Assembly (NCBI GenBank): GCA_027450005.1
Contig: DAIDKO010000036.1
Coordinates: forward strand, 1 to 38,631
From: Rhodanobacter sp.
GTDB taxonomy: Bacteria > Pseudomonadota > Gammaproteobacteria > Xanthomonadales > Rhodanobacteraceae
Length of the DNA: 38,631 nucleotides
Direction: 5' to 3'
In this document: positions 26,941 through 37,602 of the stretch, in pieces
Layout of the letters: each line of letters starts with the position of its first letter
How positions within the stretch are numbered: the first letter of the stretch is position 1
Position numbers and translations under genes: made by a program
Notes under the pieces: generated by a model
What the model was told of the DNA's origin: nothing
Seen by the model: only the letters and a program-made list of their open reading frames with translations
Database searches by the model: none

Positions 26941-27320
26941 CTATCGCGCGCCGTGTTGCGGCAGGCGCAGGCTGACGCGCAGGCCGCCGCCCTCGCGGTT
27001 GGCAAACAGGACGCGTCCGCCATGGGACTCGGCAATCTCGCGAGCCAGCGCCAGGCCAAGGCCGGTGCCGGAGCGCTTGGTGGAGTAGAGCGGCAGCAGC
27101 GCCCGCGCCAGCACGGTCTCGCTCATGCCGGGGCCGCGGTCGGATACATCGATGCGCAGCTCGCTGCCGGTGCCAAGGATACCGAGGCTGACCTCGTCTT
27201 TTGCGCTGCCGGATTCGTGCGCGCTCTTGATGAGGTTGATCAGCAACTGCTCGATCTGCACCGGATCGAAACGTCCCGGCTGCGTCGGTGTCGGTGCCGC
27301 CAGCTGGTAGCGGCAATGCA
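26941..27320 (-). pseudogene. 3' remnant of an NtrY-like sensor histidine kinase
   Basis: Only the C-terminal ATPase part of a histidine kinase remains, about 125 residues. It has an N box (QIEQLLINLIKSAHESG), G1 (VSDRGPGMSE), an F/G2 region (STKRSGTGLGLALAREIAESHGG) and a normal stop codon (TAG at 26943-26941). The sensor, HAMP and H-box parts are missing; upstream, the sequence continues without a break into remnants of an unrelated membrane-fusion protein. The junction is near 27,320, give or take about 20 bp, because the last HlyD-like residues (EVDQAKDAL) run in the same frame into the kinase. The remnant lacks its own start and phospho-acceptor and is judged non-functional. Confidence 0.85.
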
Positions 27321-27886
27321 GCGCATCCTTGGCTTGATCCACTTCCACCCAGTGGCCGCGCCAGCGGCGAACGCCTTCTGCTCGCGATCGAGGCCGGTTT
27401 CCGCGCTCTCGGCGTCGATCTGCGCAACATCGAAGGCCTTCTGCGGCGCACCGCGCTTGGTGCGCGCGTCCACCTGCGCCTGCAGTCCACCTTGATCGCA
27501 TCGTCCTTGGATTCCTCTTGCGCCAGCTTGTTGCGCAGCTCGGGGCTGTCGATCACAGCCAGCTCCTAGCCTTGCTTCACCCCATCGCCGGCACGCACCT
27601 TCAGGACCGCCGCACCGCGGTAGGTCGCGCAGGGCGTGGGGATGTTCGCCGCCAACACCTTGCCATCGGCGGCGATGTCGCGCACAAACGGCCCACGCTC
27701 GACGGTGGCGAAGGCCAACCGCGGTGCGCTCACCGAGGCGTCGGCGAAAAACAGGCGCAGCATGCCCGGCATGGCGAATGCCAGCACCGCCAACAAGGCC
27801 ATTGCGCCGCCGATGAGCAGCAGGCGGCGCTCTCGGTTCGGCTTGACCTCGACCATGCGGTGTTGTGCGGAAGTGTCGCGGATCAT
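27321..27886 (-). pseudogene. 5' remnant of an HlyD/RND-type periplasmic adaptor (membrane-fusion) protein
   Basis: The gene starts at an ATG at 27886 (MIRDTSAQHRMVEVKPN), has a transmembrane segment (LLLIGGAMALLAVLAFAMPG) and the start of the biotinyl-lipoyl-like domain (PFVRDIAADGKVLAA, VKVRAGDGVKQG-like). It then meets an in-frame TAG at 27568-27566, after which the same frame continues the family sequence (ELAVIDSPELRNKLAQEE), so a Gln codon probably became a stop. A frameshift near 27,486 moves the homology (LQAQVDARTKRG) to the next frame, and another near 27,355 moves it again (VEVDQAKDAL). After that the sequence switches to histidine kinase. It is therefore decayed by point mutation, indels and a large 3' deletion. 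Confidence 0.88.
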
Positions 27887-28067
27887 CGTCGGCTCCCTTG
27901 CCGCGGACAGTGCGGCCCCGATCCGGACTGAGCAATCGGCGCGCCAATCCGGAACGAAGGAAAAACAGACTGAATTTCCGCAAGTTGGGATCGGCAAGTC
28001 ACGGACGATCGGTATCCGCGGACACTGCGCGGACACCGGACAGGGTATGGCGGGCGCGCATGCGAAG

Positions 28068-28234: not shown

Positions 28235-30778
28235 GAAGTCCTGCTTGAAGCGGATGCCGATGGTGCGCGGCTGGCTGACGCCGGTATAGACCTGTCCATT
28301 CGGATACTGCGGCACCACGCCGTGCGCACCGCAGATCGTCACCCCGCATTCGGTGAACTTGTAAAGCACGGCGCGCTCGTCGAAAGCGTTGTCGACGTAG
28401 GCGTCCAGCGACCAGTTGTCCTTTTCGAACCCTGCGGAAAGGTCGACTGTGTTGTATGCGGGCATATCACCGAGCAGGCTGCGCTCCAGTAGCCGGAGGT
28501 CGCTGGTGCGCTTGCCCACGTGTACCAGCGCCGCTTGCACGTAGCCCTCGTTTTCGCCCATGTCAAAGCTGTAGCGCGCAATCAGGTTCCCCTTGAAGCG
28601 CGGCGTGATCGGCAGTTGGGTGCCTTTGGGCGCCTGAGGCCCGCTAACCACCGAGCCGTTGGAGGGATTGATCGTGCCGGCGGGGCAGTAGGTGACCGGG
28701 TTGCCGTCAGCGCCCGTGAAACCGCAGTAATTGGCGGTCAACTTGGCATCGTAGAAGGCAACCCCCGCGCTGAGGTTTAGGTTGTAGGTAGCCTGCCACA
28801 CCACCTGCGACTCCAGCCCATTGATACGCGCCGAGTTGGCGTTCTTGATAATGGTCAATCCATTCGGACCAAGGATGTTGAACTGGAAATTGTTCCAGTC
28901 CTCGCGGAACACCGCACCGTTGAACGAAAGCCGGTTACCGAACCACGAGGTCTTCCAACCGAACTCCAGGTTGGTCAGGTAGTCGGCTTGGTAGGGTGGC
29001 AGCGCACCAGCGCGGTTGACGCCTCCCGGGCGGTAGCCTTCGGAACGGGTCAGGTAGACCATCGCGTTGGGCGAGATGTTCCAGGTGAGATTGATTTTGC
29101 CCAGTGAACCGCTCTGCCGCACCTGCTTGTTGAAATCCAGGCAAGGCGCGCCAAGGAAGGGCTGGTTCGAGATGCAGCCTGCCTCGCCATAGCTCGAATT
29201 CGGCGAGAAGCCCTTGCTAAAGCCGTAGAATCCGTAGAGCTGGTTCTCGCTTCGGAAGTAGCGCCCGCCGACGGTAGCGGTGAGCGTATCCGGGATGATG
29301 TCGTAGGACAGCTCGCCGAACACAGCCTTGTCGTAGTCGTAGCGCACCTGCCGGGTCAGCCAGATCGTGTTCGGCCAGCCGGACACCGACAACGAAGTGG
29401 CCAGATTGGCGATCTGGTAGTCCTGCATGATGTCGTGCTTCTGCCTCTGCCAGAACGCACCGGCGACCAAGCGCAGACGGTCCTCGCTGGGTGAGACGAT
29501 GCGCAGTTCGTGGCTGTCGTTCCGGTAGTGGTCGCGGTCGTTGATGTACTCGGACGGGTTGATCAAGGCGCCGCTGTTATCGTGGATGTACGCTCCGTAG
29601 GAGAGCAGGGTGTCGTACCAGAACGAATAGTCGTTGTAGTCAGTCGCCTCCTCCTGGTCGCGTTTCAGGTGCGCGTAGGCATACGTCAGGTCAAAATTTC
29701 CAATCTTGCCCTGCACGGTCAACGCGCCCTGCCACCAGCGGTCGTCGACGCGTTCTGGATAGAAGTGGGTGACCGCCAGGTTGCCGACGACAGGATCGCT
29801 GGCGAATGTGCCGTTCGAGATCGTCTGCTGGCCCATCAGAGTTGGGCTGATCGACCAGTCGTCGTTGAGATCCACCTTCAGAGCGGCGCGGGCACCCTGG
29901 GTGTTGACGTCGTTGTAGTGCTTGCGGGCATGCCCGTGGCACTCCAGCATCGGGCCCGGCGTGCAGTTGTCGGCGTTGCTGATGGTGATGCCGGACACCG
30001 GGAAGGTGCGCGTGCCGGCCTTGTTGTCGATGTAGCCGGCGTCGTGTTCGCGCCAGCCCACGACGCGCACCGCCGCGGCCGGGCTCAGCGGAATGTTGAG
30101 CATGCCGTCGCCGGTATAGCCCACGCCGCCGTGCGCTACGTCATCGACGCCGAGCTGGTAGCTCGCCGCGAAACGACTGGGATCCGGCTTGTTTGTGATG
30201 ATGCGCAGAGCCCCCGCCTCGGCGCTGGCGCCGTATAGTGTGCCTTGAGGCCCAGCCAACACCTCGATGCGGGCGATGTCGTACATATGAATGTCGAGCG
30301 GCCCCTGGATCGTGGTGATGGGCTGGTCGTCCAAGTACACGCCGACGCTCGGTTGCGATCCGGAGTGATTCGTGTTTCCTCCGCTGGCCACGCCGCGCAT
30401 GTAGATGGTCGCAAAGCCCGGGCCAGTGGCGATGCCACCGCCGCCCTGCTGGAAGGTGACACTGGGCAGGTATTTCACATAATCGTTGAAATTCTGCACG
30501 TGGAGTGCTTCAAGCTGGTCGTTCTCCAGCACATTAATGCTGATCGGCACCTTCTGAAGGTTCTCGGTGCGCTTCTGCGCCGTTACCGTGACCACGCCCA
30601 GCGTGGTGGACTTCAGCTTCGTTTTTGCTGCTGAAGGCGCGGCCGCAGTTGTCGCCTGAACCGCCCCCTGCGCCAGCGCAGGTGCGGTGATGGCCAGACA
30701 GATTGCCGCGGCCAGCGGCAGCCTGGCCATTCCACTCCCGTAAGCCCCACCCACACGCTTTAAGTTCTTCGTTTGCAT
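28232..30778 (-). CDS. TonB-dependent outer-membrane receptor
   Basis: An 848-residue beta-barrel transporter. The signal peptide (LPLAAAICLAITAPALAQG) is followed by a linker, a TonB-box-like stretch (LGVVTVTAQKRTENLQKVP) and the plug domain (VGVYLDDQPI, LAGPQGTLYGASAEAGALRIIT). The barrel ends in GIRFKQDF with a terminal phenylalanine. It resembles the large TonB receptor families of Sphingomonads and Xanthomonads that take up unknown organic substrates rather than the ferric-siderophore type with a signalling domain. Predicted outer loops hold four closely spaced cysteine pairs (C-x8-C, C-x10-C, C-x13-C, C-x4-C), likely disulfides. A strong GGGGAGGGG ribosome site precedes the ATG. It lies 44 bp after the sulfotransferase gene, in one operon. 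Confidence 0.93.
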   Translation of the reverse strand: MQTKNLKRVGGAYGSGMARLPLAAAICLAITAPALAQGAVQATTAAAPSAAKTKLKSTTLGVVTVTAQKRTENLQKVPISINVLENDQLEALHVQNFNDYVKYLPSVTFQQGGGGIATGPGFATIYMRGVASGGNTNHSGSQPSVGVYLDDQPITTIQGPLDIHMYDIARIEVLAGPQGTLYGASAEAGALRIITNKPDPSRFAASYQLGVDDVAHGGVGYTGDGMLNIPLSPAAAVRVVGWREHDAGYIDNKAGTRTFPVSGITISNADNCTPGPMLECHGHARKHYNDVNTQGARAALKVDLNDDWSISPTLMGQQTISNGTFASDPVVGNLAVTHFYPERVDDRWWQGALTVQGKIGNFDLTYAYAHLKRDQEEATDYNDYSFWYDTLLSYGAYIHDNSGALINPSEYINDRDHYRNDSHELRIVSPSEDRLRLVAGAFWQRQKHDIMQDYQIANLATSLSVSGWPNTIWLTRQVRYDYDKAVFGELSYDIIPDTLTATVGGRYFRSENQLYGFYGFSKGFSPNSSYGEAGCISNQPFLGAPCLDFNKQVRQSGSLGKINLTWNISPNAMVYLTRSEGYRPGGVNRAGALPPYQADYLTNLEFGWKTSWFGNRLSFNGAVFREDWNNFQFNILGPNGLTIIKNANSARINGLESQVVWQATYNLNLSAGVAFYDAKLTANYCGFTGADGNPVTYCPAGTINPSNGSVVSGPQAPKGTQLPITPRFKGNLIARYSFDMGENEGYVQAALVHVGKRTSDLRLLERSLLGDMPAYNTVDLSAGFEKDNWSLDAYVDNAFDERAVLYKFTECGVTICGAHGVVPQYPNGQVYTGVSQPRTIGIRFKQDF

Positions 30779-30822
30779 GACCCCTCCCCTGTAGTCCACG
30801 ACCATCGATCGATATCGAACCG

Positions 30823-32841
30823 CTACCACCCCTCCGGCGCATCCGGATAGCTCTCCAGCACCGGCCCCAGCGCCGATTCCAGTGGCCCCAGCCACGCCAT
30901 GTAATGCCGCCAGTGATCCACCCCTTCGCGGTAGATCGGCCTTCGTACCTGCTCGGAACTAGCCGTGCGCACCGGCCGCGTGTTCTCGAAGAAACGCAGG
31001 CATGCCGTTTCAAACGGGAGGCCGCAATAGTCGAGCAGCCGGCGCACCTCGCCCTCAGTATCGTCGACCATGCGCTCATACACCACGCGGTGCACGCGCC
31101 CGGGAAGCACGGCGTCGAAGTGCGCCATCAGCGCCACGTAGTCGCGGTAATAGCGCCCTACGTCGCCCAGGTCGTAGCTGAAGTTCTGGCCACGCGCGAA
31201 ATGCTGCTTGAAGACAGAGAAGCCACACGCCAGCGGATGCCGGCGCGCGTCGATGATCTTCGCATTCGGCAGCATCAGGTGGATCAGGCCGACGTGCATG
31301 AAGTTGTTCGGCATCTTATCGATGAACAGCGGCGCCGTGGTCTTACGCTGGATCCGGGTGTGCATCAGGTAGCGCTCGCCGAGCGCGCGCAGTCCATCGG
31401 CGTCCAGCGCTGCCAGCGCTACGTGGTAGGGCATCGCCTCGTCCGCGTCGCCCTGCCGGCGCAGCAGACGGGTGATCGAGGTGATCTCCGGCAGCTCCAT
31501 GGTGCCTTCGACCTGGCTGTGGCTGGACAAGATCTGCTCGATCAGGGTGGAGCCGGCGCGCGGCAGGCCGACCACGAAGATTGGATCAGGCGCCGCACTA
31601 CCACTACCCTCGCGCGCGGCGAAGAACTCAGCGGTGTAGTGCTGTCGGATGTAGCGCACCCGCGCGCTGGTGTCGTCCGCACTGTAGTGCAGCTGTGCGC
31701 GGCGGATCGCATTGCCCTGCACGTAGTGACGGAACGACGGCTCGTACTCGCCGCCATCCTCCAGCGCCTTGCCAACGGCGAATTCCAGGTGCAGGCGGTC
31801 ATCCTCGCTCAGGTCCGAGCGCGCCAGCTGCGCGCGCATCGCCGCCAGGTCGTCGGCATCGAAACGGAAGGTCTTGAGGTTAGCCAAGCTCCACCAGACC
31901 TCGCCGAACGAAGGCTGCAGAGCCAAGCTGCGCCGATAGGCGGCGATGGCCCGGTCCAGATGCCCGGCAGTCTTCAGCGCATGGCCGTAGCTCACCCACA
32001 GCTTAGGCGTATCCGGACTGCTCTCCACCAGCTCGTCATAGATGCGGATGGCCGGCTCGTAGTCACCGACACGGCATAGCACCACCGCCTTCAGGTTGCG
32101 GCAGCCGATGTCGCCGGGATCGGACGCCAGCAGACGGTCGATCTCGGCCAGTGCCTGCTCGGGGCGGTTACTGCGATGCAGGACCAGTGCATAGTTGCGG
32201 CGCGCCTCGTGAAAGCCGGGGGCGAGCTCCAGGCAACGTTCGAGCAGGTGCAGCGCATCCTCGATACGGCCGAGCCGGGCTGCCACCTCGGCGAACATGC
32301 GGATCGCCGCCACGTCGGTGGGTGCCTGCCTCAGCTGCGTGCGCAGCAGCGCCTCCGCCGCTGGGATGCGGTTCTCCGCCAGGGCAACCGCCGCAGCCAG
32401 CAATTGCGGATCACGGGTGGAATGCCGCACGTGACTGACATAGGCCGCCTCGGCCGCCTCCTGCTCGCCTGCTGCCGCAAGGCAATCGCCGAGCATGCGC
32501 CAGGACTGCGGCAGGTCGGGTTTCAGCGCCACCGTCCGGCGCAGTGCGGCGATGGCTTCCTGGCCACGGCCGCTGCGGGACAGCGCCAGCCCCAGATCAA
32601 GTTGAATCTCCGCCCAGTCCGGCCTGCTGCGTGCCAGCGGCACGAGGATAGCCAAGGCCGCGGACAAGTCACCAAGGAGCGAGTGTAGTGCTGCTCGCAA
32701 TTGCAGGGCGGATGGATGCCCGGGTGCAGCCCGCAGGATGTCGTCGAGCAGTTCGGCTGCCTGTGCAGGGTCCTGCTCCAGCAGCCGTGCGGCGTGGATC
32801 AGCGCCTCTTCGAGCGTGCCGGTGTCGGGAGCCGCCGTCAT
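30823..32841 (-). CDS. TPR-repeat sulfotransferase family protein
   Basis: A 672-residue two-part protein. The first roughly 400 residues are tandem TPR repeats (LQLRAALHSLLGDLSAALAI, LDLGLALSRSGRGQEAIAAL and others). The C-terminal part is a PAPS-dependent sulfotransferase domain, with the 5'-phosphosulfate loop FVVGLPRAGSTLIEQIL and the 3'-phosphate region IIDARRHPLACGFSVFKQHF. It should transfer sulfate to an unknown protein or small molecule; TPRs suggest a protein or peptide partner. The ATG at 32841 is taken because the frame upstream crosses the intergenic region without homology. It heads an operon with the TonB receptor. No signal peptide is seen, so it acts in the cytosol. Confidence 0.9.
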   Translation of the reverse strand: MTAAPDTGTLEEALIHAARLLEQDPAQAAELLDDILRAAPGHPSALQLRAALHSLLGDLSAALAILVPLARSRPDWAEIQLDLGLALSRSGRGQEAIAALRRTVALKPDLPQSWRMLGDCLAAAGEQEAAEAAYVSHVRHSTRDPQLLAAAVALAENRIPAAEALLRTQLRQAPTDVAAIRMFAEVAARLGRIEDALHLLERCLELAPGFHEARRNYALVLHRSNRPEQALAEIDRLLASDPGDIGCRNLKAVVLCRVGDYEPAIRIYDELVESSPDTPKLWVSYGHALKTAGHLDRAIAAYRRSLALQPSFGEVWWSLANLKTFRFDADDLAAMRAQLARSDLSEDDRLHLEFAVGKALEDGGEYEPSFRHYVQGNAIRRAQLHYSADDTSARVRYIRQHYTAEFFAAREGSGSAAPDPIFVVGLPRAGSTLIEQILSSHSQVEGTMELPEITSITRLLRRQGDADEAMPYHVALAALDADGLRALGERYLMHTRIQRKTTAPLFIDKMPNNFMHVGLIHLMLPNAKIIDARRHPLACGFSVFKQHFARGQNFSYDLGDVGRYYRDYVALMAHFDAVLPGRVHRVVYERMVDDTEGEVRRLLDYCGLPFETACLRFFENTRPVRTASSEQVRRPIYREGVDHWRHYMAWLGPLESALGPVLESYPDAPEGW

Positions 32842-33104: not shown

Positions 33105-34178
33105 GTGAACAATGCCGACACCGGGATCGAGGCACTCGATCGTTCGTACGCCCTGCCGGCGCGCTATTACGCGGGCCACACAGCGCTGGCGCTGGAACAG
33201 CGCGCAGTGTTCGCACGCAGCTGGCAGTTAGTAGCCCATCAGGGGCAACTGGCTGAGCCGGGCGACCACGTGGTTGGGCAGGTGGCCGAGGTCCCGGTAT
33301 TGCTCGTGCGCGGACACGATGGAGTGCTTCGCGCGTTCCCCAATGTATGCCGCCACCGCGCTGGACCGCTCGCGCTGTGCGACGGCAAGGGCATCCGCGC
33401 CCTGCACTGTAAATACCACGGCTGGACGTACACGCTGGAAGGCCAACTCCGCAGCGCGCCTGAGATGCAGGACGCATGCGATTTCCGGGTCGAGGACATC
33501 CGCCTGCCGCCGCTGCGCGTGCACGAATGGCAGGGCCTGGTTTTCGTGGCGCTGGACGCGGAGACGCCGCCGTTCGACGAGGTCTACGGCGGCATCGTCG
33601 AGCGCATCGCGCCGATCGACCTGTCGGCGATGCGCTACCTGCGCCGCGACACCTATGACATCGCCTGCAACTGGAAGGTCTACGTCGACAACTTCCTTGA
33701 GGGCTACCACCTGCCGCACGTGCATCCGGGCCTGTCGAAGGTGCTCGACTATCGCGCCTACGACACCGAGCTGTTCGCCTGGCATTCGCTGCAGTCCTCG
33801 CCGCTGCGCAACAGCAGCACGCTGTATGGCGACGGCCAGGCGTTCTACTACTTCGTCTACCCCAACGTGATGCTCAACATCCTGCCGGGCCGACTGCAGA
33901 CCAACCGCATCCTGCCGCTGGGTCCCGACCGCTGTCGCATCGTGTTCGACTACCACTACACGCAGGACGAGACAGCCCAGACGCGCATCGAAGCCGACCA
34001 GGCCTTCAGCGACGAGGTGCAGCGCGAGGACATCGCGATCTGCGAGGCGGTGCAACGGGGCCTGTCCTCCGGCCGCTACGTCCCCGGCCGGTTGTGCCCG
34101 AAGCGCGAAAGCGGCGTCTGGCATTTCCAGAACCTGCTGCGCGCGGCCTACGCCGGGGCCGCCGGAGATCCCGCGTGA
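33105..34178 (+). CDS. Rieske non-heme iron oxygenase alpha subunit, probable quaternary-amine/betaine demethylase or monooxygenase
   Basis: A 357-residue oxygenase. The Rieske [2Fe-2S] ligands are C82-x-H84 (VCRHRAG) and C102-x2-H105 (HCKYHGW). The mononuclear iron site is formed by H202 and H207 in NFLEGYHLPHVHPG plus a downstream Asp in the SDEVQREDIAICEAV helix. Motif style is that of choline/carnitine monooxygenase, glycine betaine demethylase GbcA and stachydrine demethylase Stc2 rather than aromatic dioxygenases. It starts at a GTG with AGGGGA 8 nt upstream. No reductase partner is in the window. The stop overlaps the permease start. The substrate is inferred from the downstream flavoprotein. 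Confidence 0.88.
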   Translation: MNNADTGIEALDRSYALPARYYAGHTALALEQRAVFARSWQLVAHQGQLAEPGDHVVGQVAEVPVLLVRGHDGVLRAFPNVCRHRAGPLALCDGKGIRALHCKYHGWTYTLEGQLRSAPEMQDACDFRVEDIRLPPLRVHEWQGLVFVALDAETPPFDEVYGGIVERIAPIDLSAMRYLRRDTYDIACNWKVYVDNFLEGYHLPHVHPGLSKVLDYRAYDTELFAWHSLQSSPLRNSSTLYGDGQAFYYFVYPNVMLNILPGRLQTNRILPLGPDRCRIVFDYHYTQDETAQTRIEADQAFSDEVQREDIAICEAVQRGLSSGRYVPGRLCPKRESGVWHFQNLLRAAYAGAAGDPA

Positions 34179-35521
34179 GCGGTGTCGACGCCACCGCGGC
34201 GCGCGGCGAACGCAAGATCGGCTTCTGGACCTGCACGGCCCTGGTGATAGGTAACGTGATCGGCATGGGCATCTTCGTGCTGCCCGCCTCGCTGGCACCC
34301 TACGGCTTCAATGCACTGATCGGCTGGGTTATCGTGCTGGCTGGCTGCCTGGTGCTGGCCCGCGTGTTCTCGCAGCTGGCCCGCGCCCTGCCCGGGGTCG
34401 GCGGCCCCTACGGCTATATCAGCCATACGCTGGGCGGAACAACGGCCTACCTGGCGCTGTGGGCTTACTGGGTGTCGGTGTGGCTCACCAATTCCGCGCT
34501 GGCGACCGGCGTAGTCGGCTACCTGGTGGTGGTATTCCCGCCACTGGGCGCGCTGCCGCCGATGTGGTTTGCCCAGGCCCTGCTGTGGGCGATGGTGGCG
34601 GTGAACCTGTGCGGCGTGCGCAGCAGCGGCGGCGTGCAAATCGCCACCACGGCGCTCAAACTGTTGCCGATGCTGGCGATCGCGTTGCTGGGCGGCTGGC
34701 TACTGCTGACTTCGCCGGCCAGCTACACCGCCCACCTTCCGCCCACGCCGATCACCCTGGGCAGCGTGACCGCCGCCTCCACCATCGCCCTGTTCGCGAT
34801 GATCGGCGTCGAATCGGCCAGCGTGCCGGCGGCGCGCGTGGATGAGCCTGCGCGCACCATCCCGCGCGCCACCATGGCCGGTACCGTGCTCACCGCGGCG
34901 ATCTACATCGTCGTCTCGGCCGTGCCACTGCTGCTGATCCGGCAGCAGGAGCTGGCCGACACGGGCGCGCCGTTCGCGCTGCTGATGGACCGCTACGCCG
35001 CTGCGGGGTCCGGGCGCTGGCTGGCGCTTTTTGTGGCGATCAGCGGACTGGGCGCGCTCAACGGCTGGACCCTGTTGGTAGGGGAGCTGACCCGCACGAT
35101 GGCCGGCAACGGCGTACTGCCGGCCGTACTCGCGCGCAGCAACCGCCAGGGCACGCCGGTGGTGGCGCTACTGGTTAGCGGCGTACTGGCCGCGGGAATG
35201 ATCGCGCTGAGCTACAGCAAGTCGCTGGTGTCGGCCTTCACCTTCCTCACCCGGGTGGGGACGGCCGCCAGCCTGCCGCTCTACCTTTGCTGTGGGCTGG
35301 CGCTGGCCGTGCTGTGGCGCCGGCGCCACGCCGCCTGCAACACGCGGCGGAGCATGATTGTGGCGGCCGCGTGCGTGCTGTTCGTGGCGTTCGCCTTCGT
35401 TGGCACCGGCCGTGAGCCCTTCCTGTATGCCCTGGGGTTGGTCGCGGCGGGGCTGCCGCTGTATGCGCTGATGCGCCTGTGGCGCCGCGGGGATCCATCG
35501 GCCGGAGTACTGCCGGAATGA
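34175..35521 (+). CDS. APC-family amino acid/amine permease
   Basis: A 448-residue inner-membrane transporter with about 12 hydrophobic segments. The first helix region (KIGFWTCTALVIGNVIGMGIFVLP) has the APC-superfamily GxGIF motif, and the overall pattern (VGGPYGYISHTLG, IGVESASVPAARVDEPARTIPRA) resembles AdiC/CadB-type exchangers. In this operon it should import the methylated amino acid or betaine, or exchange it for a product. The GTG start overlaps the oxygenase stop (GTGA) with GGAG 8 nt upstream. Its stop overlaps the next ATG as ATGA. Specificity cannot be read from the sequence. Confidence 0.9.
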   Translation: MSGVDATAARGERKIGFWTCTALVIGNVIGMGIFVLPASLAPYGFNALIGWVIVLAGCLVLARVFSQLARALPGVGGPYGYISHTLGGTTAYLALWAYWVSVWLTNSALATGVVGYLVVVFPPLGALPPMWFAQALLWAMVAVNLCGVRSSGGVQIATTALKLLPMLAIALLGGWLLLTSPASYTAHLPPTPITLGSVTAASTIALFAMIGVESASVPAARVDEPARTIPRATMAGTVLTAAIYIVVSAVPLLLIRQQELADTGAPFALLMDRYAAAGSGRWLALFVAISGLGALNGWTLLVGELTRTMAGNGVLPAVLARSNRQGTPVVALLVSGVLAAGMIALSYSKSLVSAFTFLTRVGTAASLPLYLCCGLALAVLWRRRHAACNTRRSMIVAAACVLFVAFAFVGTGREPFLYALGLVAAGLPLYALMRLWRRGDPSAGVLPE

Positions 35522-37602
35522 GGGATCCACGCTACGACATCCTGTTCGAGCCGCTGAAGATCGGCCCGGTCACCGCGAAGAACCGCTTCTTCCAGGTGCC
35601 GCACTGCAACGGCATGGGCCATGCCATGCCACTGGCCCACGCGGCGATGCGCGAGACCAAGGCCGAGGGCGGTTGGGCGGTGGTCTCCACCGAGGAGTGC
35701 GAGATCCACCCCAGCGGCGATCTCACGCCCTACGTGGAGGCGCGCCTGTGGGACGACCGTGACATACCCGCACTGGCTCTGATGTGCGACAAGGTGCACG
35801 CGCACGGCGCGCTGGCAGCGCTGGAGCTGACCCACAACGGCCCCACCGCGTCGAACCTGTATTCGCGCGAGGTGCTGATTGCACCTTCGCACCAGCCCAC
35901 CAAATACGGCTACCCACACCAGGCGCGCGCGATGACGCTGCGCGACATCCGCGAATACCGCCGCTGGCACCGCGATGCGGCGATCCGCGGCAAGCGCGCC
36001 GGCATGGACATCATCTACGTCTATGCCGCGCACGACCTGTCGCTGGCGATGCACTTCCTGCAGCGCCGGCGCAACCAGCGAAGCGACGCCTACGGCGGCT
36101 CGCTCGAAAACCGCGTGCGCCTGCTGCGGGAAGTGCTGGAAGACACCCGGGAAGCGGTGGGCGACCGCTGCGCGGTGGCGCTGCGCTTCGCCGTCGAGGA
36201 GGGGCTCGGCCCCGATGGCGTGGAGCTGGCCGAGGCACAGGACATCGTGGGTATGCTGGCCGAAGTGCCGGACCTCTGGGACGTGAACCTGGCCGCCTGG
36301 TACAACGACTCGGTACCCTCGCGCTTCGCCGCCGAAGGCGCGCAGGAGCCGTTCATCACCTTCGTCAAGAAGACCACCACCAAGCCGGTGGTGGGCGTGG
36401 GCCGCTTCACCTCGCCCGACACCATGGTGTCGCAGCTCAGGCGTGGTGTGCTGGACCTGATCGGCTGCGCGCGCCCGTCGATCGCCGACCCGTTCCTGCC
36501 GCAGAAGATCGAGCAGGGCCGCGTCGACGATATCCGCGAATGTATCGGCTGCAACGTCTGCGTCTCCGGCGACATGACCATCTCGCCGATCCGCTGCACG
36601 CAGAACCCGACCATGGGCGAGGAATGGCGCAAGGGCTGGCACCCCGAACGCATCGCGCCGGCGCGTACGCCGACGCGCGTGCTGGTGGTCGGCGCGGGCC
36701 CAGCGGGGCTGGAAGCGGCGCGTGCGCTGGGCCAGCGCGGCTGCGCGGTGAGCCTGGCCGAGGCCCGCAGGGAACTCGGCGGCCGTGTCACCCGCGAGTC
36801 GCGCCTGCCCGGCCTGGCCGAATGGGCACGCGTGCGCGACTGGCGCGTGGGCCAGATCCACAAGCTGGCGAACGTGGACGTCTATCTCGACTCGGTGCTG
36901 AGCGCACAGGACGTGCTCGACTTTGGTGCGGAACACGTGGTGCTGGCGACCGGCTGCCACTGGCGCAGCGACGGCTACGGCCGCAGCCACGGCTTCGCCA
37001 TCCCTGGCTTCGCCGATAGCGCGCGGGTCTACACGCCCGACGACCTGATGGACGGCCGCCTGCCGCAAGGCCGCGTGGTGGTGTTCGACGACGACGGCTA
37101 CTACCACGCGGGCGTGGCGGCCGAACTGCTGCGCCTGCGCGGTTGCGAGGTGATCCACCTGACCCCCGAGGACAGCCTCGCACCGTGGACGCTCAATACG
37201 CTCGACTATCGCCACGTGCGCAAGCGGATGGCCGAGCTCGGCATCGAGGCGATGGTTTCGCACGACGTGGTGGGATACGACGGCGCCGCGCTCACCATCG
37301 AGGACGTGTGGACCCATCGGCGGCGCGAACTGGCCTGCGACGCCGTGGTTACCGTCACCGCTCGCCTGCCCGACGACGCGTTGTGGCAGGAGCTGAATCG
37401 GCGCGAGGTGGAATGGACCGAGGCCGGCATCCGTAGCGTGCGCTGCATCGGCGACGCCGAAGCGCCGGGGCTGATCGCGCACGCGGTCTACGCCGGCCAC
37501 CGCTACGCCCGCGAGCTGCAGGAACCGGCCTGCGGCGAGGTCGCGTTCAAGCGGCATTTCCACAGCGCCGACGCCGACGACCTGCGCCGTCCGCGCGATT
37601 AG
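35518..37602 (+). CDS. Trimethylamine dehydrogenase-family flavoprotein, DgcA/StcD-like N-demethylase
   Basis: A 694-residue multidomain protein. An N-terminal old-yellow-enzyme-like FMN barrel begins MRDPRYDILFEPLKIGPVTAKN, followed by VPHCNGMGH. A [4Fe-4S] cysteine cluster (CIGCNVC, then one more cysteine 12 residues on) comes next. The C-terminal half is a two-dinucleotide-fold domain (VLVVGAGPAGLEAARALG and the later RVVVFDDDGYY). Start and family blocks match dimethylglycine dehydrogenase DgcA and N-methylproline demethylase StcD, which remove methyl groups as formaldehyde. It is translated in tandem with the permease (ATGA). The electron acceptor (ETF or DgcB) is not in the window. Plain dienoyl-CoA reductase is less likely given the N-terminus. 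Confidence 0.88.
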   Translation: MRDPRYDILFEPLKIGPVTAKNRFFQVPHCNGMGHAMPLAHAAMRETKAEGGWAVVSTEECEIHPSGDLTPYVEARLWDDRDIPALALMCDKVHAHGALAALELTHNGPTASNLYSREVLIAPSHQPTKYGYPHQARAMTLRDIREYRRWHRDAAIRGKRAGMDIIYVYAAHDLSLAMHFLQRRRNQRSDAYGGSLENRVRLLREVLEDTREAVGDRCAVALRFAVEEGLGPDGVELAEAQDIVGMLAEVPDLWDVNLAAWYNDSVPSRFAAEGAQEPFITFVKKTTTKPVVGVGRFTSPDTMVSQLRRGVLDLIGCARPSIADPFLPQKIEQGRVDDIRECIGCNVCVSGDMTISPIRCTQNPTMGEEWRKGWHPERIAPARTPTRVLVVGAGPAGLEAARALGQRGCAVSLAEARRELGGRVTRESRLPGLAEWARVRDWRVGQIHKLANVDVYLDSVLSAQDVLDFGAEHVVLATGCHWRSDGYGRSHGFAIPGFADSARVYTPDDLMDGRLPQGRVVVFDDDGYYHAGVAAELLRLRGCEVIHLTPEDSLAPWTLNTLDYRHVRKRMAELGIEAMVSHDVVGYDGAALTIEDVWTHRRRELACDAVVTVTARLPDDALWQELNRREVEWTEAGIRSVRCIGDAEAPGLIAHAVYAGHRYARELQEPACGEVAFKRHFHSADADDLRRPRD

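Follow-up and report, generated by a model that had tools for sequence, protein, structure and literature searches.

The DNA analysed here, called the window below, is a 38,631-nucleotide stretch from Rhodanobacter sp. (contig DAIDKO010000036.1). Its minus strand carries a gene for a sulfotransferase fused to tetratricopeptide repeats (TPRs), abbreviated ST, followed by a gene for a TonB-dependent receptor (TBDR). The ST-TBDR pair is a conserved and widespread module, and the adjacency of its two genes is far from chance. An earlier note on this DNA had reported the ST gene, the TBDR gene 44 bp further on and a strong ribosome site, and both open reading frames (ORFs) proved to be intact at those positions (Table 1). 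The reading that is favoured for the module, tentatively and at somewhat less than an even chance, is that ST sulfates the neighbouring receptor in the cytosol before export, probably on tyrosines of a loop. The source genome is an incomplete draft of 2.9 Mb (87.7% complete), of which the window is contig 36. Elsewhere it has a gene for adenosine 5'-phosphosulfate (APS) kinase, which is needed for the synthesis of the sulfate donor 3'-phosphoadenosine 5'-phosphosulfate (PAPS).

The pairing is retained among close and distant relatives. Among 61 relatives, 15 genomes have an orthologue of the receptor (E <= 1e-100), and an ST match (E <= 5e-187) is present in all of these and confined to them. 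The match is near full length, except in G022, where it covers residues 96-668. By coordinates, ST adjoins the receptor in 15/15 of these genomes. In a class sample of 274 genomes, an ST is found at most 2 kb away from eight of the nine receptor places (E <= 1e-60), and in a phylum sample of 398 genomes this is true of 24/25 places (E <= 1e-50). Two places depart from this, G202:C1 and also G549:C1:1413303, where 8.8 kb separate the receptor from an ST. An ST match is present in 22/22 phylum genomes with the TBDR versus 94/398 overall. The window is counted in both samples, two places (the window and G198) are common to both, the lists were ordered by how closely the matches resemble the proteins of the window, and two to four candidates were scored per genome, which makes the hits per genome lower bounds. 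The adjacency is therefore not peculiar to one strain, nor do the nearest homologues of the receptor occur mostly without an ST, the two outcomes on which the earlier note had said that its proposed module would fail. The neighbourhood survey strongly supports that module.

Genomes with names were scanned as well, and the best 80 of 583 ST relatives were kept. A TBDR lies within 900 nt of ST in 75 of these 80 loci, downstream on the same strand in 69, upstream in one and on the other strand in five. It is missing in five, two of which (L109, L170) end at, or at most 80 nt from, a contig end. In L154 an ORF of 159 aa separates the two genes. By their record titles the named loci belong to Dyella, Rhodanobacter, Rudaea, Lysobacter, Thermomonas, Steroidobacter, Caulobacter, Phenylobacterium, Asticcacaulis, Sphingomonas and Nitrospirillum. 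The pair occurs in both Gamma- and Alphaproteobacteria. A census of 114 STs found a TBDR within 2 kb of 105, a count that gives no rate because part of the loci had been selected for their TBDR. The pair is also present on metagenome contigs whose titles name Klebsiella pneumoniae (L111, L138) and Candidatus Planktophila (L140). These contigs group with environmental proteobacterial loci from metagenome-assembled genomes (L108, L135, L134), and their titles are probably wrong. In two members of the order (L077, L078) a gene of about 300 aa, of the same family in both, lies on the opposite strand between ST and the TBDR.

The relation between linkage and descent was followed in a quick tree. 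From 157 matches to a TBDR profile, 99 full-length linked receptors (ST within 1.5 kb) and 28 full-length unlinked ones were kept, and one of the latter was taken out by hand, namely a weak second TBDR of L140. The other 30 were left out as fragments, as lying at contig edges, or as having an ST at 1.5-2 kb (e.g. L253). The gene caller and the TBDR and ST profiles were home-made. One branch, with a support of 99 and inner forks that are only partly resolved, holds 88 linked receptors and one unlinked receptor (L250). The set of 88 rows omits 11 linked rows placed elsewhere in the tree and holds near-duplicates (the receptor rows of L073 and L162 are identical). The gene order in these rows is ST then TBDR in 75, TBDR then ST in eight, divergent in four and convergent in one, which requires six changes on the tree, and linkage is retained throughout. 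That the pair stays together through changes of order argues for functional coupling. Could the two genes be merely co-inherited neighbours that have no biochemical coupling? The dominance of one order would suit this explanation, as would the finding of the genes apart in L178, L179, L250, L257, L260 and G549. However, the pair persists in four arrangements, every receptor-bearing genome among the 61 relatives and the 398 phylum genomes has an ST match, and the pairing is also found on plasmids. Simple co-inheritance is considered extremely unlikely.

In contrast to the pair, its surroundings are not constant. A Pfam scan of 94 flanking proteins (104 found, minus 10 from near-duplicate loci; proteins of less than 140 aa or cut by contig ends had been omitted earlier) showed no family in more than four of them. 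Since the pair is constant while its flanks vary, it is a portable unit and not part of one pathway. The flanks in other genera include IclR, thiolase and M20 genes, and further neighbours encode a class III aminotransferase, an aldehyde dehydrogenase, an amidohydrolase, a flavin amine oxidase, and an acyl-CoA dehydrogenase or carboxylesterase. In the window the start of a divergent Rieske oxygenase gene is separated from that of ST by 263 bp, the size given for this upstream region in the earlier note. The operon that begins there (33105-37602) probably serves amine or betaine demethylation, and its members recur near the pair in other genera. We take the set of Rieske oxygenase, APC permease and histamine dehydrogenase to be analogous to known betaine or amine demethylation. 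A fixed substrate pathway was considered for the pair and rejected, as the flanking families vary and clusters of these three kinds occur in only 17, 16 and 11 of 99 loci, respectively. The neighbours also bear on the proposal that ST sulfates an imported compound in the cytosol to begin its breakdown or detoxification. Catabolic genes are frequent beside the pair (Rieske N-demethylase-like, histamine or trimethylamine dehydrogenase-like, amidohydrolase, M20, acyl-CoA and carboxylesterase), but the chemistry of these pathways differs by lineage while the active-site residues of ST stay invariant at 38-84% identity. To our knowledge degradation pathways of these kinds do not usually include a sulfation. 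The proposal is regarded as very unlikely.

The predicted structure of ST suggests an enzyme that may modify proteins. The AlphaFold2 (AF2) model is confident, with a mean predicted local distance difference test score (pLDDT) of 91.9, and shows about 10 TPRs as pairs of helices. A signal peptide is not apparent by eye. The first Foldseek match is the TPR superhelix of O-GlcNAc transferase (OGT), and a tick protein-tyrosine sulfotransferase (TPST) appears at rank 41. When Foldseek's matches were given a second look with VIA-align, using ST residues 415-669, the TPSTs came out on top. The best was 5wri (Z 22.6, rmsd 3.1, 245 residues aligned), the range for TPST1/2 was Z 22.1-22.6, and the sulfotransferases of small-molecule pathways (olefin synthase and curacin) scored below them at Z 18.5 and 17.7. 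In a phmmer search the E-values were weak: 3.2e-7 for the tick TPST 8w5z, which was best, 1.3e-6 for CurM and about 3-4e-4 for human TPST1. R428, E449 and K509 are invariant across 72 aligned STs (38-84% identity), and the phmmer alignment pairs the first two with the TPST Arg and Glu. The Glu aligned with E449 is, we presume, the catalytic base of human TPST2. The catalytic base of TPST has been given as H or E (PMC9372746). On the fold ranking and the conserved residues, ST is TPST-like in its predicted fold and residues, and the invariance of R428, E449 and K509 suggests that catalysis is probably kept. The resemblance of the TPRs to those of OGT, a protein-modifying enzyme, also suggests a protein substrate, although the OGT-like Asn ladder is conserved only partly (N216 65%, N249 61%) and was given no weight. 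TPR domains are often chaperones, and ST might be a TPR chaperone that does not sulfate, or might modify some other surface or periplasmic component needed by the receptor, such as a glycan, lipoprotein or adhesin. This two-sided explanation is quite unlikely: the invariant residues speak against a chaperone, and no third gene is constant beside the pair.

A secreted product has also to be weighed. According to this explanation ST sulfates a small molecule or peptide (perhaps a metallophore or a signal), which is secreted and then re-imported by the TBDR. In close relatives the TBDR gene is followed by genes for HlyD, an ABC ATPase, an outer-membrane efflux protein and two FtsX-type permeases, a broken HlyD remnant is found in the window, and ABC-type ATPases are encoded upstream in two paralogous loci (L075, L076). 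A single common product would explain the obligate pairing. However, full-length HlyD of this family is present in only 8/99 loci (seven close relatives and L144). No nonribosomal peptide synthetase or polyketide synthase family is among the flanking families listed (25 of 120 shown in the scan of 94 flanking proteins), although no search was aimed at these. The ST domain is nearer in fold to the protein-tyrosine than to the small-molecule sulfotransferases. The HlyD gene that follows the receptor in the close relatives is complete and encodes 423 aa (L061:10277-11548). At 26941-28036 of the window an HlyD piece of 106-156 aa runs into a C-terminal piece of a histidine kinase, and this break reflects either a rearrangement or a misjoined draft assembly.

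A precursor peptide was looked for among short ORFs. ORFs of 18-100 aa lying 700 nt upstream or 450 nt downstream of ST were compared all against all by BLAST at 1e-3 in the window, L061-L072 and L101-L180, and overlap with called genes was then checked. No widely conserved precursor was found: every cluster present in at least six loci overlaps a called gene or the TBDR, in a search that could miss fast-evolving peptides. Three clusters, each in five loci, have most of their members outside genes, and all come from the window and its near relatives L061-L067. The other non-genic clusters, of those in at least three loci, are from four near-relative loci or three Nitrospirillum loci. A few short ORFs of the upstream gap of the window are common only to the window and up to four near relatives, and from these sequences a lineage-specific precursor peptide may exist. 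Such short ORFs could be precursors of a secreted product, whereas the lack of a widely conserved one counts against it. The earlier note had found no convincing precursor gene beside ST. The same note had suggested that a sulfated product is made or recognised together with uptake of a cognate molecule. A secreted product would fit the exporter of the relatives, but it is held to be unlikely, and modification of the receptor is better supported by the variable flanks, the lack of a wide precursor and the TPST-like fold.

The partner of ST is a receptor with a conserved tyrosine motif. The AF2 model of the TBDR is a confident barrel (pLDDT 87.2) that Foldseek matches to FyuA (4epa, E 1e-36, TMt 0.87). 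Plug is its sole Pfam match, the barrel family being unmatched at 0.001, and the plug together with the predicted outer-membrane beta-barrel identifies it as a TonB-dependent receptor. It was not assigned to a named siderophore, heme or B12 receptor family, as TIGR01783 scored 120.1 bits against a cut-off of 223.5 and the other 21 NCBIfam families listed also fell below their cut-offs. The receptors of the 88-row branch set have in common the motif D-Y-[S/T]-D-Y. D380 is conserved in 87/88 rows, Y381 in 85/88, S/T382 in 72/88, D383 in 68/88, Y384 in 87/88, Y388 in 73/88 and D389 in 71/88, and few positions of the loops or their edges are as well conserved as D380, Y381 and Y384. In the model a strand (362-380) runs into a helix (382-392) within a long loop (380-411), and the neighbouring turns, 359-362 and 428-435, are short. 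Because the loop is long and the adjoining turns are short, we infer that the motif probably lies outside the cell. In the model, all four Cys pairs that the earlier note had placed in receptor loops sit in long loops on what is presumed to be the outer side of the membrane. Three of them are well conserved (62-78/88 rows) and C272/C280 is rare. DYxxY occurs at the motif site in 83/88 linked receptors of the branch versus 1/27 TBDRs that lack an ST, the one being L250. The genomes that supplied these 27 controls belong to the same order, with one more from the class. When the 97-residue loop region was searched against 274 genomes, 10 places were found, of which eight are within 2.6 kb of an ST, one is near a contig start and one is at the place of L250. 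Most TPST substrates have an Asp directly before the Tyr, as stated for the metazoan enzymes (PMC9372746). The enrichment of DY was rejected as proof of sulfation, because phylogeny confounds it and not every partner has the motif.

More distant TPR-sulfotransferases have other partners. Ten plasmid records with TPR-STs were taken at E <= 1e-60. In the five with about 30% identity (Lelliottia, Enterobacter, Kluyvera, Pacificitalea, Thalassospira) an annotated autotransporter is found within two genes in 5/5, and these records represent three lineages and not five independent cases. On the three enterobacterial plasmids (L292, L293, L296) ST is directly followed by a GT8 glycosyltransferase and then by the autotransporter, with a small hypothetical gene between GT8 and the autotransporter in L293. 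The target in these sets may be a glycan or another residue, and glycan sulfation there would favour the view that ST modifies some component other than the receptor. In four of the five nearer plasmid TPR-STs (43-56% identity) a TBDR directly adjoins ST. Plasmid pLA3 of Novosphingobium US6-1 has a TBDR on both sides of ST, with an alpha-glucosidase and a LacI regulator as neighbours. The plasmid of Asticcacaulis sp. DW145 (L288, 4771-12639) carries, near phnX, a TBDR, a sulfotransferase, an Asp/Asn beta-hydroxylase, the TPR-ST and a further sulfotransferase. The annotated TBDR is thus upstream of the TPR-ST with two genes between, and this is possibly a receptor-modification set. Partners that are surface proteins of the outer membrane, taken with protein-modifying enzymes, favour a protein substrate.

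Among 24 second-tier ST loci (L013, L014, L079-L100), a TBDR adjoins ST in seven (L013, L087, L090, L094, L097-L099) and is one gene off in two (L084, L093), and no ST gene was called in two (L091, L092). A rule that all TPR-STs have a surface-protein partner is unsupported, since 13/24 of these loci have no nearby TBDR. L013 is a second TPR-ST cluster of the source genome (contig 131, 3-10 kb) with more than one ST stretch, some containing stops. It is convergent with a different TBDR of about 1057 aa, and similar convergent sets are present in relatives (L087, L097-L099). In L080 and L084 a gene for a pro-kumamolisin-type protease is divergent to the TPR-ST. No ST relatives were found in phage records at 1e-20.

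The mechanism that is favoured would proceed as follows. A cytosolic protein sulfotransferase of TPST fold, fused to TPRs, would act on the newly made receptor, which the TPR superhelix would bind while it is still unfolded. Sulfate would be moved from PAPS to one or more receptor residues, most likely the tyrosines of D-Y-[S/T]-D-Y. The receptor would then be exported by Sec and assembled in the outer membrane, where sulfotyrosine would be shown at the place the ligand arrives and would tune binding, and with it presumably uptake. Modification of a neighbouring surface protein fits better than a role with one ligand because the flanks vary and no widely conserved precursor was found, and it is favoured because the catalytic domain is TPST-like and distant TPR-STs lie near autotransporters. 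A broad version holds that Proteobacteria modify surface proteins of the outer membrane before export through cytosolic enzymes encoded at the same locus, with a widespread TPR-TPST family sulfating the receptor next to it, or an autotransporter in other branches. For receptors it proposes sulfotyrosine in the ligand-facing loops. This broad version is considered less likely than not.

Several observations weigh against receptor sulfation. The linked TBDRs are essentially one branch, and the motif may therefore belong to the branch as such and serve structure or ligand binding. L250, the unlinked receptor of the branch, retains D-Y-x-x-Y with no adjacent ST; its genome carries other STs, one of which has no TBDR in view (L260). 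The 11 ST-linked rows outside the branch have no DYxxY at the site, the partner receptors of Asticcacaulis and N. capsulatum lack the motif, and the three enterobacterial autotransporters downstream of ST contain no DY at all. Since the motif is missing in some partners, a tyrosine in DY context cannot be the general target, and beside GT8 the target could be a glycan. CurM, which belongs to a small-molecule pathway, is close behind the tick TPST in the phmmer search and ahead of the human TPSTs, and the exporter set behind the pair in close relatives would fit an exported product. In the second tier, 13/24 loci have no TBDR beside ST or one gene from it, and many of those STs have housekeeping genes as neighbours (the genes found there include helicases, APS kinase and phosphoglucose isomerase).

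Table 1. Features of the ST-TBDR pair and its neighbours in the window
Feature	Position	Strand	Basis
ST gene, 672 aa	30823..32841, ATG 32841	minus	ORF intact; PF13469 Sulfotransfer_3 4.4e-47 and TPR families
TBDR gene, 848 aa	28232..30778, ATG 30778	minus	ORF intact; Plug PF07715 1.1e-16
44-bp ST-TBDR gap with GGGGAGGGG Shine-Dalgarno-like site at 30781-30789	30779..30822	minus	sequence read
TPR and other helices, ST residues 10-401	31639..32814	minus	DSSP on model; Foldseek best match OGT TPR domain 1w3b
Predicted PAPS sulfotransferase domain, ST residues 415-669	30835..31599	minus	VIA Z 22.6 to human TPST1 5wri; phmmer 8w5z 3.2e-7
5'-PSB loop to putative catalytic-base region, ST residues 421-449 (R428, E449)	31495..31581	minus	R428 and E449 invariant, 72 ST sequences
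D380-Y381-N-D-Y384-SFW-Y388-D389 motif, candidate sulfation site, start of long loop, presumed extracellular	29612..29641	minus	alignment and model
TBDR Cys pair C272/C280	29939..29965	minus	15/88 rows
TBDR Cys pair C535/C546	29141..29176	minus	70/88 and 78/88 rows
TBDR Cys pair C685/C698	28685..28726	minus	65/88 and 62/88 rows
TBDR Cys pair C811/C816	28331..28348	minus	68/88 rows, both Cys
Divergent Rieske oxygenase (context, not core)	33105..34178	plus	nearest solved relative carnitine monooxygenase 6y9c 2.9e-46
APC-type amino acid/amine permease (context)	34175..35521	plus	PF13520 1.1e-46
Histamine/trimethylamine dehydrogenase-like flavoprotein (context)	35518..37602	plus	3k30 histamine dehydrogenase 5.3e-242

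Known systems resemble the pair in part. OGT and SPINDLY also join a TPR superhelix to a C-terminal transferase, and theirs modifies proteins; however, their glycosyltransferase domain is unrelated to the sulfotransferase domain of ST. RaxST, which we take to lack a TPR superhelix, differs in this from ST, where one is fused to the enzyme. RaxST-RaxX shares with the pair a TPST-type enzyme, and the Xanthomonas TPST is described as acting in the cytoplasm before its substrate is secreted (PMC9372746), which is the order proposed here. In contrast to RaxST-RaxX, no widely conserved precursor peptide was found beside the STs of the window type in the comparison of short ORFs. With metazoan TPST1/2 the predicted ST domain shares the fold, the PAPS loop and the aligned Glu, and the receptor motif resembles the Asp-Tyr context described for their substrates. 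ST differs from them in being apparently cytosolic and fused to TPRs, at about 20% identity and with no Golgi anchor, and its activity is predicted only. The closest parallel in gene arrangement is CciT-CciO (PiuA-PiuC / Fiu-YbiX), described as receptor-dioxygenase pairs that are co-conserved across Proteobacteria (PMC12004947, PMC11870441). In Caulobacter the function of CciT is reported to need CciO strictly, although loss of the enzyme does not keep the receptor from being made and correctly placed in the outer membrane (PMC12004947, PMC11870441). The models offered there let the enzyme act on a substrate or inhibitor, and the link between receptor and enzyme was left open by the authors (PMC11870441). 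Both systems set a TBDR beside a cytosolic enzyme, with adjacency and co-occurrence conserved, but the enzyme is a 2-oxoglutarate/Fe(II) dioxygenase in one and a PF13469 TPR-fused PAPS sulfotransferase in the other. The ST-TBDR pair suggests a model beyond those listed for CciT-CciO, namely modification of the receptor itself. By analogy, CciT-CciO and the Asticcacaulis set, with its three annotated sulfotransferases including the TPR-ST, may work alike through modification of the receptor and not through ligand chemistry.

Bacteria are considered to sulfate protein tyrosines only rarely, and most of them are described as lacking TPST (PMC9372746). The few bacterial TPST genes have been said, from unpublished observations, to adjoin often genes for making and exporting extracytoplasmic proteins (PMC9372746), a remark that points the same way as receptor modification. 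A paper on Sutterella describes a TonB gene near one arylsulfate sulfotransferase, which belongs to a different family. No published account of the TPR-ST/TBDR pair was found among the literature matches listed, as judged from the openings of their abstracts. Why do some TonB-dependent receptors need a cytosolic partner enzyme? Receptor modification would be a concrete answer. If active, a TPST-like enzyme tied to one receptor branch in Gamma- and Alphaproteobacteria would make protein sulfation common in environmental bacteria, and would place it on nutrient receptors. The ST-TBDR unit occurs in many soil and water bacteria, and its pairing of an enzyme similar to animal TPSTs with an uptake receptor suggests, as a proposal only, that these receptors are decorated with sulfate on their way to the surface.

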